Assembly: GCA_900471925.1 (NCBI GenBank)
Contig: UCGV01000024.1
Span: 1 to 64,000 of the forward strand
Length of the DNA stretch: 64,000 nucleotides
Origin: Hyphomicrobiales bacterium
GTDB taxonomy: Bacteria > Pseudomonadota > Alphaproteobacteria > Rhizobiales > Rhizobiaceae
Direction: 5' to 3'
The position numbers and the translations under genes are program-made. The notes beneath the pieces were generated by a model. That model did not search any database. It was not told the DNA's origin and was given only the letters and a program-made list of their open reading frames with translations. Shown one piece after another: positions 61,006 through 64,000 of the stretch (position 1 is its first letter; each line of letters starts with the position of its first letter).

Positions 61006-61746
61006 TTATTTCGTTCTGCCGGCGGCGGTCAGATCGCGTTTGGCAAGATCGAGAATTCGGTTGACGCAGTCACGCGCACCCGCCGCATCCCGCAGCCGCA
61101 GGGCCTCGACCACCTTGCCATGCAAGGCGAGAGCTTCGCGGTGATCGGGCATGGCGACGTTCGAGGCATGCAGCGCAAATTTCAGGGCGGCATGGATGGC
61201 GACGGAGAGGCGATGGAAGATCTGATTGTGGCTCGCCTTTAGAAGCACGGTATGAAAGAGCAGGTCCGCCTCGGTGAAAGCCTCTGCATCGTTGCTTGCC
61301 GATTGCATCCGCTGCCACGCATCTTCGAGATCGGCGATCTCCTGTGCACTGGCGCGGCTCGCCGCATATTCGGCGGCCGCCGGCTCGATCGTCCGGCGGG
61401 CTTCGAGAATACTGGCCAGAAGATCGAAATCGCCAAGATGCGGCCCCATCCACTCCAGCACATCCTGATCGAGAATGTTCCACTCGTCCTTGCCGCAGAC
61501 GGTGGTGCCGATGCGTGGCCTGCCACGCACCAATCCTTTGGATTCAAGAACCTTCAGGGACTCGCGGATAACGGTGCGGCTGACGCCGTGGAGGTCGCAG
61601 AGATCGTTTTCGCGCGGCAGCAACGTGCCGGCAGGATAACGGTTGGCGCATATATCCCCGGCAATCGCCGCCGTGACGTTACGGCGGACACGCGGCCGGC
61701 GCTCGGGCGCCGCGGCTTTATCATCGCGTCTTGCTGCGGGCTGCAT
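61006..61746 (-). CDS. GntR/FadR-type regulator, DgoR-like
   Basis: 246 aa. The winged helix (NRYPAGTLLPRENDLCDLHGVSRTVIRESLKVLESKGLVRGRPRIGTTV) is followed by an FCD domain with His/Asp metal-site residues (EADLLFHTVLLKASHN ... HREALALHGKVVEAL). It is upstream of dgoD on the same strand, matching DgoR. It should bind the 13-bp inverted repeat at 61777-61815 and release in the presence of galactonate. Ribosome site GAGGAATTTCCA. Confidence 0.9.
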   Translation of the reverse strand: MQPAARRDDKAAAPERRPRVRRNVTAAIAGDICANRYPAGTLLPRENDLCDLHGVSRTVIRESLKVLESKGLVRGRPRIGTTVCGKDEWNILDQDVLEWMGPHLGDFDLLASILEARRTIEPAAAEYAASRASAQEIADLEDAWQRMQSASNDAEAFTEADLLFHTVLLKASHNQIFHRLSVAIHAALKFALHASNVAMPDHREALALHGKVVEALRLRDAAGARDCVNRILDLAKRDLTAAGRTK

Positions 61747-61776: not shown

Positions 61777-61815
61777 CAATCATCATACACAAGCAACCTT
61801 CTTGTATGATGATTG
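61777..61815. promoter_or_regulatory. Inverted repeat in the GntR/osmC divergent gap
   Basis: CAATCATCATACA (61777-61789) and its exact reverse complement TGTATGATGATTG (61803-61815) are separated by 13 nt. Each arm carries a TATGAT, which could serve as a -10 box in either direction. Best read as the DgoR-like operator; it might also affect osmC. Confidence 0.7.
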
Positions 61816-62366: not shown

Positions 62367-62390
62367 TCCTTTACGCCTGTTTTCGTTCCG

Positions 62391-62427
62391 ATGCCGCAGC
62401 CTCCCAAGGCTGCGGCATTTTTGTTTG
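62391..62427 (+). terminator. Rho-independent terminator of osmC
   Basis: ATGCCGCAGCCT (62391-62402) pairs with AGGCTGCGGCAT (62407-62418), a 12-bp stem with a CCCA loop, directly followed by TTTTTGTTT. Confidence 0.92.
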
Positions 62428-62456
62428 CATCGCAAAATCATTGACAAGTGATGGAT

Positions 62457-62504
62457 GATATTTTACGACTGACGAAATTCGAATTTCGTCAGTCGTAAAA
62501 TATC
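62457..62504. promoter_or_regulatory. Perfect 48-bp palindrome upstream of the TetR gene
   Basis: The 24 bases 62457-62480 (starting GATATTTTACG) are the exact reverse complement of 62481-62504. It begins 11 nt after a TTGACA (62441-62446) and covers the expected -10 and start region, 13 nt before the TetR ATG. It is best explained as a TetR operator with two overlapping or adjacent dyads. Confidence 0.88.
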
Positions 62505-62517
62505 AGGCCTGAAACCC

Positions 62518-63126: not shown

Positions 63127-63176
63127 GCGCGGCAACCACCGCCCGAGAAAACCCTAGATAATCAGGAGTGCGAAAG

Positions 63177-64000
63177 ATGTTTTCGCTCAAGGCCTTCCGC
63201 AACCGCATGCCTTCCGTCACGAGCCTCGCGCTTGTCGGCGCGGTCGGGCTCGGCGTTGCCGGCTGCACGGAAGAAAAGGCAGAGGTCAAGGAGGTCATCC
63301 GTCCGGTCAAGGTGGTCGAGATCGCCAAGGCCGGTGATGTCAGAACACTCGATTATTCCGGATCGGTCAGGGCACGCACGGAAATGAACCTCGGCTTCCG
63401 CGTCAACGGCAAGATCACCGAACGTCTCGTCGATATCGGCGAGCAGGTGAAGCCGGGAGACGTGCTCGCCCGGATCGACTCGACCGACTACCAGCTCGCG
63501 GTGAAGACCGCCGAAGCCAATCTCGCCGCCGCCGAAAAGGCCGTCGAGACTGCCGATCTCGTCAATCGCCGTGCCGAGCAGCTGTTCGACAAGAATGTCG
63601 CGCCGAAATCGCAGGTCGAACAGGCTTCGCTGAGCCACGATCAGGCCATTTCGAACCGTGATGCTGCCGCTTCTGCCCTCGATCAGGCGAAGAACCAGGT
63701 GAGCTACACCGAACTCAAGGCTGATCACAGCGGCATCGTGACCACCATCAATGCCGATGTCGGACAGGTCGTGGGGTCCGGCACGCCGGTCGTTGCCGTT
63801 GCCGTCGATGGCGAGAAGGAAGTGCAGATCGCCGTGCCGGAAAACGATATCGCCCAGTTCAAAACGGGCAAGACCGTCAAGGCGAGCTTCTGGTCCGATG
63901 ACAAGCTGGTGCTTGACGGTACCGTTCGCGAGGTTGCAGGCAGCGCCGACCAGCAGTCGCGCACTTTCGCGGTTCGTGTCAGCCTGCCAAACGATCCGCG
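63177..64000 (+). CDS. RND efflux periplasmic adaptor, lipoprotein (3' end beyond window)
   Basis: At least 274 residues are open to the window edge from the ATG at 63177 (AGGAGTGCGAAAG). A lipobox (GVAGC) ends the signal; then the strand RTLDYSGSVRARTEMNLGFRVNGKITERLVDIGEQVKPGDVLARID (lipoyl half), a coiled-coil hairpin (about residues 105-175), VSYTELKADHSGIVTTINADVGQVV (second half) and the start of the beta-barrel. It should partner an RND pump gene just outside the window. Probably controlled by the TetR protein upstream. Confidence 0.93.
   Translation, partial: MFSLKAFRNRMPSVTSLALVGAVGLGVAGCTEEKAEVKEVIRPVKVVEIAKAGDVRTLDYSGSVRARTEMNLGFRVNGKITERLVDIGEQVKPGDVLARIDSTDYQLAVKTAEANLAAAEKAVETADLVNRRAEQLFDKNVAPKSQVEQASLSHDQAISNRDAAASALDQAKNQVSYTELKADHSGIVTTINADVGQVVGSGTPVVAVAVDGEKEVQIAVPENDIAQFKTGKTVKASFWSDDKLVLDGTVREVAGSADQQSRTFAVRVSLPNDP

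Follow-up and report, generated by a model that had tools for sequence, protein, structure and literature searches.

The window, by which is meant the whole 64,000-nt stretch of DNA that was analysed, ends within an RND periplasmic adaptor gene that follows tetR on the plus strand; an AcrB-type pump gene follows the adaptor outside the window (G000:C46:64342-67491). The tetR ATG begins 12 nt past a long perfect palindrome, and osmC lies upstream of the palindrome on the same strand. Among the named loci (the best 80 of 275), the adaptor gene was downstream on the same strand in all 80, and osmC was upstream on the same strand, at a distance of at most 2 kb, in 67. The sequence-only reading had placed the palindrome at a TetR/RND promoter. 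The order of tetR, adaptor and pump fits this placement, the promoter itself being putative. A hairpin resembling a terminator, with a T tail, was located at 62390-62419 between osmC and the tetR promoter region (0.6 expected by chance). At 61777-61815, upstream of a minus-strand GntR/FCD regulator gene (61006-61746), the two arms of a perfect 13-nt inverted repeat (CAATCATCATACA / TGTATGATGATTG) flank a spacer of 13 nt; this repeat is perhaps the operator of that gene. Features of the palindrome region are collected in the table.

The domain search of the tetR product returned PF00440 (9.6e-15) and PF17935 (2.9e-32). The TetR model was mostly helical with a pLDDT of 82.9, and TetR-family regulators were the best PDB matches both by sequence and by fold, the DarR-DNA complex 8sva being among the fold matches listed. 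The product is thus, as predicted from its sequence and model, a TetR-family repressor with a DNA-binding domain and a helical ligand domain.

Features of the palindrome region (window positions; fractions of 129 refer to distinct regions retrieved by TetR protein)
Feature	Position	Strand	Basis
Perfect 50-bp palindrome	62456..62505		Symmetry check; single place in genome
Left outer arm, sequence-variable; complementary to the right one in several lineages	62456..62462		Relatives compared
Right outer arm	62499..62505		Relatives compared
Conserved putative operator core TTACGAnTGACGA-N10-TCGTCAnTCGTAA	62463..62498		Conservation among relatives
Half-site L1, TTACGA	62463..62468	+	Exact in 124/129
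Half-site L2, TGACGA	62470..62475	+	Exact in 119/129
Half-site R2 (TCGTCA on + strand)	62486..62491	-	Exact in 128/129
Half-site R1 (TCGTAA on + strand)	62493..62498	-	Exact in 121/129
Probable -35 element TTGACA	62441..62446	+	TTGAC at same distance in 129/129
Putative -10 element TACGAC in left arm, 17-bp spacer	62464..62469	+	Inferred from fixed spacing
tetR, TetR-family repressor (TetR_N + TetR_C_27), 202 aa	62518..63126	+	Domain search
RND periplasmic adaptor gene	63168..64000, continues beyond window end	+	Domain search

A perfect palindrome lacking a spacer had been described at 62457-62504. Both properties were confirmed, and the symmetry was found to extend 1 bp further on each side, to 50 bp centred between 62480 and 62481. 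Other perfect spacerless palindromes in the window reached 16 bp at most. When 100 windows of equal length were generated with a first-order Markov model, the longest palindrome in each ranged from 14 to 26 bp. The central 38 bp occurred at a single genomic site at up to 3 mismatches (7,160,538 bases, 64 contigs), as did the 36-bp core at the same threshold. A mobile or repeated element is ruled out by the single genomic place of palindrome and core. The identical 50 bp were present in Rhizobium sp. BK418 (L032) and BK316 (L037) with different flanks; because three assemblies share the sequence in differing surroundings, a private assembly error is unlikely. Runs of 2 or 5 N were present at the palindrome centre in 6 of 199 protein-retrieved locus rows, from five assemblies (L038, L039 on the contig of L007, L175, L177 and L183), as if assemblers had failed there. 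Given these N runs, such palindromes do seem to trouble assemblers.

Loci from relatives were oriented by tblastn. TetR was found in 245 of 247 loci; the two without TetR (L224 and L225) and six rows containing N were dropped. The resulting 172 distinct regions comprised 129 retrieved by TetR protein and 43 retrieved by a left-half pattern. This pattern required TTGAC and the left arm, so the 43 regions were preselected for both. The 172-region set was utilized for the tetR tree, compensating changes, core mismatches and the comparison of Thr49 with Pro49, and counts out of 129 refer to the protein-retrieved regions. Permutation of the outer arms was performed on an earlier set of 134 regions plus 45 left-half-pattern rows (179 in total). 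The tree was a quick one, built from tetR DNA and midpoint rooted, and includes L212, which carries an in-frame stop. Ancestral states were assigned with a simple one-rate model.

The core was present beside a TetR orthologue in 129/129 distinct N-free protein-retrieved regions, each of them retaining 22 or more of the 24 scored bases, and TetR identity was as low as 68%. Relatives therefore keep an inverted repeat beside the regulator gene, which supports the earlier suggestion that this is the probable operator of the adjacent TetR. Each core contains four copies of TNACGA, every one of them exact in 119-128 of the 129 regions, and all 13 arm pairs were symmetric in 96 of the 129. A TetR match was present in 119 of 120 genus genomes and in one there was none. 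The exact TTGAC plus left-arm pattern was found in 53 of 394 family genomes, two of the matches not being beside TetR. When 297 genomes of the order were searched for the full core at up to 1 mismatch, 8 contained it, all among the 13 from the family of the window; the other 5 of that family and all 284 sampled genomes of other families gave no match at this threshold. In Sinorhizobium meliloti (L252 5002-5071) the right distal half-site is degenerate and the remaining core is kept. Conservation of both arms, proposed earlier as a check, was thus observed for the core arms and not for the outer arms, which vary; perfection over the full 50 bp was confined to three regions.

In 129/129 regions the core was preceded by TTGAC at a distance of exactly 22 nt, and the intervening 17-nt stretch occurred in 103 versions. 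This fixed distance indicates that the promoter probably overlaps the operator. The putative -10 element is a poor match to consensus (3/6 positions) and a consensus promoter scan reported no promoter, so the assignment is one made from spacing. On the same spacing, transcription is expected to start at ∼62475-62477, near the palindrome centre. The overlap with the start site claimed in the sequence-only reading is accordingly favoured by the invariant TTGAC-to-core distance, but not by the consensus scan.

Half-sites within the core are separated by 7, 14, 21 and 28 bp. TetR-family sites are given as 22-32 bp for two dimers against 15-17 bp for one, the two-dimer sites being non-palindromic in several instances, and the recognition helices of CprB as 38 Å apart, in the available portion of one structural report (PMC4150764). 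Binding of two TetR dimers to the present core is plausible, since it carries four hexamer copies and published two-dimer sites are longer than those for one. With recognition helices 38 Å apart, no half-site pairing is an obvious fit for a single dimer. Which half-sites pair inside one dimer cannot be told from the sequence. The pair at core positions 7/30 was C:G in 102 of 172 regions. It was G:C in 26 of 46 regions with a Thr49 TetR (C:G in 10 of the 46) and in 2 of 126 with Pro49. In the TetR model the third helix, which is the recognition helix in the TetR family, starts at residue 49. The association between residue 49 and the 7/30 pair is suggestive only, as it rests on 4 tree changes, and when residue 49 and core position 7 were compared over independent pairs, the test was without power.

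The core was symmetric through its centre in 3 of 129 regions (the window, BK418 and BK316) and the centre was asymmetric in the remaining 126. In 90 of the 129 regions, contiguous pairing of the outer arms was limited to 0-1 nt, from which it follows that outer-arm symmetry is not required; as judged by these relatives, there is no conserved need for perfect 50-bp symmetry. The outer seven bases on each side are lineage-specific, yet fully paired in several lineages (for example TGATATT/AATATCA, TGATGGT/ACCATCA, TGATAGA/TCTATCA and TTTCGGT/ACCGAAA). The length of outer-arm extension was bimodal, being 0-4 nt in 105 regions, 5 nt in 2 and 7-9 nt in 22. L218 (G218) has 10 extra paired outer-arm bases, a sequence absent from the other distinct left arms listed.

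At least 5 contiguous paired outer-arm nucleotides were present in 39 of 179 regions, compared to a mean of 4.6 and a maximum of 11 after permutation of arms, a procedure that leaves shared ancestry in. De-duplicated versions, which remove shared ancestry partly, gave 12 of 114 distinct arm pairs (permuted mean 1.1, maximum 6) and, with each left arm used once, 9 of 59 (permuted mean 0.6, maximum 5). On the tetR tree, 20 compensating double changes were counted in the outer arms, against 1, 2 and 2 in controls with partners slid by 1-3 positions. A single arm type, TGATGGT/TGATGGA, is the starting point for ten of the 20, the L179 change among these involving an indel, and several others are on branches whose whole arms do not turn symmetric. 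Single changes that create symmetry were slightly in excess (fraction 0.43, slid controls 0.37, 0.30 and 0.36). Those that break symmetry numbered 129 (controls 73, 72 and 93), and double changes ending asymmetric were no rarer than in controls (21 versus 21, 12 and 22). Outer-arm wobble counts (GT/TG 162, AC/CA 60) were both below the permuted values of 217 and 87 and are hence uninformative. An inverted centre is one possible trace of template switching, and the base expected from inversion was carried by 0 of 172 regions. Intrastrand copying need not invert the spacer. The small excess of symmetry-creating changes, the number of symmetry-breaking ones, the undiminished asymmetric double changes, the absent inverted centre and the residual shared ancestry all tell against template switching.

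The palindrome is likely to be the autoregulatory operator of the tetR, adaptor and RND pump genes, an estimate that applies to the explanation as a whole. The repressor, probably as two dimers, would sit on the four TNACGA half-sites of the 36-bp core and would cover the -10 element and start region, so that RNA polymerase would be blocked. A ligand would free the repressor from the operator, and tetR, adaptor and pump would be transcribed as an operon. As the core is already a quasi-palindrome, a polymerase could copy one arm onto the other by template switching, which would lengthen and perfect the arms to the full 50-bp symmetry. The co-varying outer arms suggest such quasi-palindrome correction. 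We propose tentatively that operator palindromes may be self-rewriting mutational hot spots, in which the repressor keeps the core and repeated copying of the flanks in separate lineages yields complementary arms and, in the window as in BK418 and BK316, 50-bp perfection.

The same operator could instead be bound by one dimer that occupies just the inner palindrome TGACGA-N10-TCGTCA, and the outer hexamers would then have a role in the promoter or in weak contacts. Conservation is highest at R2, the half-site that is degenerate in S. meliloti is the right distal one, and in the left-half-pattern regions R2 was exact in 40 of 43 and R1 in 31, all of which would agree with a single dimer. The exactness of L1 and R1 in nearly all protein-retrieved regions, R1 having no evident promoter role, speaks against this reading, and we consider the single dimer unlikely. 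A leader RNA hairpin that blocks translation or provides an RNase III site is highly improbable. The palindrome is close ahead of the ATG and would fold if wholly transcribed, but transcription is expected to begin near its centre, and RNA from that point folds no better than shuffled sequences (z +1.4). Core mismatches in the 172 regions were without wobble bias (GT/TG 13, AC/CA 16), and Rfam yielded just four microRNA-precursor matches, far under gathering scores.

Selection might also maintain the outer-arm symmetry, either for pairing as a cruciform or for a longer footprint in an extended operator, with no copying involved. The excess of compensating double changes over slid controls would be expected from this, and a 90-base single strand of the palindrome region can fold (-24.9 kcal/mol, z -7.9). 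Against pairing stand the many relatives with next to no outer-arm pairing and the nearly universal asymmetry of the centre; the cruciform raised in the sequence-only reading is for the same reasons not supported as a conserved feature. With regard to a longer footprint, a protein, on general reasoning, reads a given sequence and not the symmetry of whatever sequence is present. Proteins do not read symmetry that lacks a fixed sequence, whereas arm copying would produce it, and maintenance by selection appears rather doubtful.

The explanation as an autoregulatory operator provides a specific putative operator sequence for the repressor of an efflux pump common to many Rhizobiaceae relatives, and with this sequence given, regulation and inducer are directly testable. 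The relatives form a natural series in which binding-site symmetry may come from selection or from copying errors in replication, two sources that are hard to separate. No description of this operator was found in the open literature among the matches listed. The operator is of a known kind, with testable evolutionary detail.

Two-dimer sites are reported for QacR (28 bp), CgmR (32 bp), Ms6564 (31 bp) and CprB (22 bp) in the available portion of PMC4150764, and DarR is described as binding as two dimers on overlapping palindromes in the corresponding portion of PMC10636190. As far as these texts extend, all five operators likewise exceed the length for one dimer; two-dimer binding is described for them and predicted for the present site. 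In contrast to these sites, the present operator has a 36-bp core with hexamers 7 bp apart within each arm and a 10-bp centre, and the symmetry in the window extends to 50 bp. FrrA of Bradyrhizobium, according to the accessible text of PMC4070704, is a flavonoid-responsive TetR regulator adjoining the RND pump FreCAB. It is also a rhizobial TetR beside an RND pump, and its structure 6g8g is among the 50 fold matches listed; the relationship is distant (22% identity). Template switching is stated to perfect quasi-palindromes in E. coli (PMC7202029, accessible text), and for RNA genes it is the suggested means by which stems arise and are kept (PMC8794818, accessible text). In both, as proposed here, an imperfect inverted repeat is made more perfect and both arms change, with the difference that template switching is here inferred from natural operator variation and not from a reporter.
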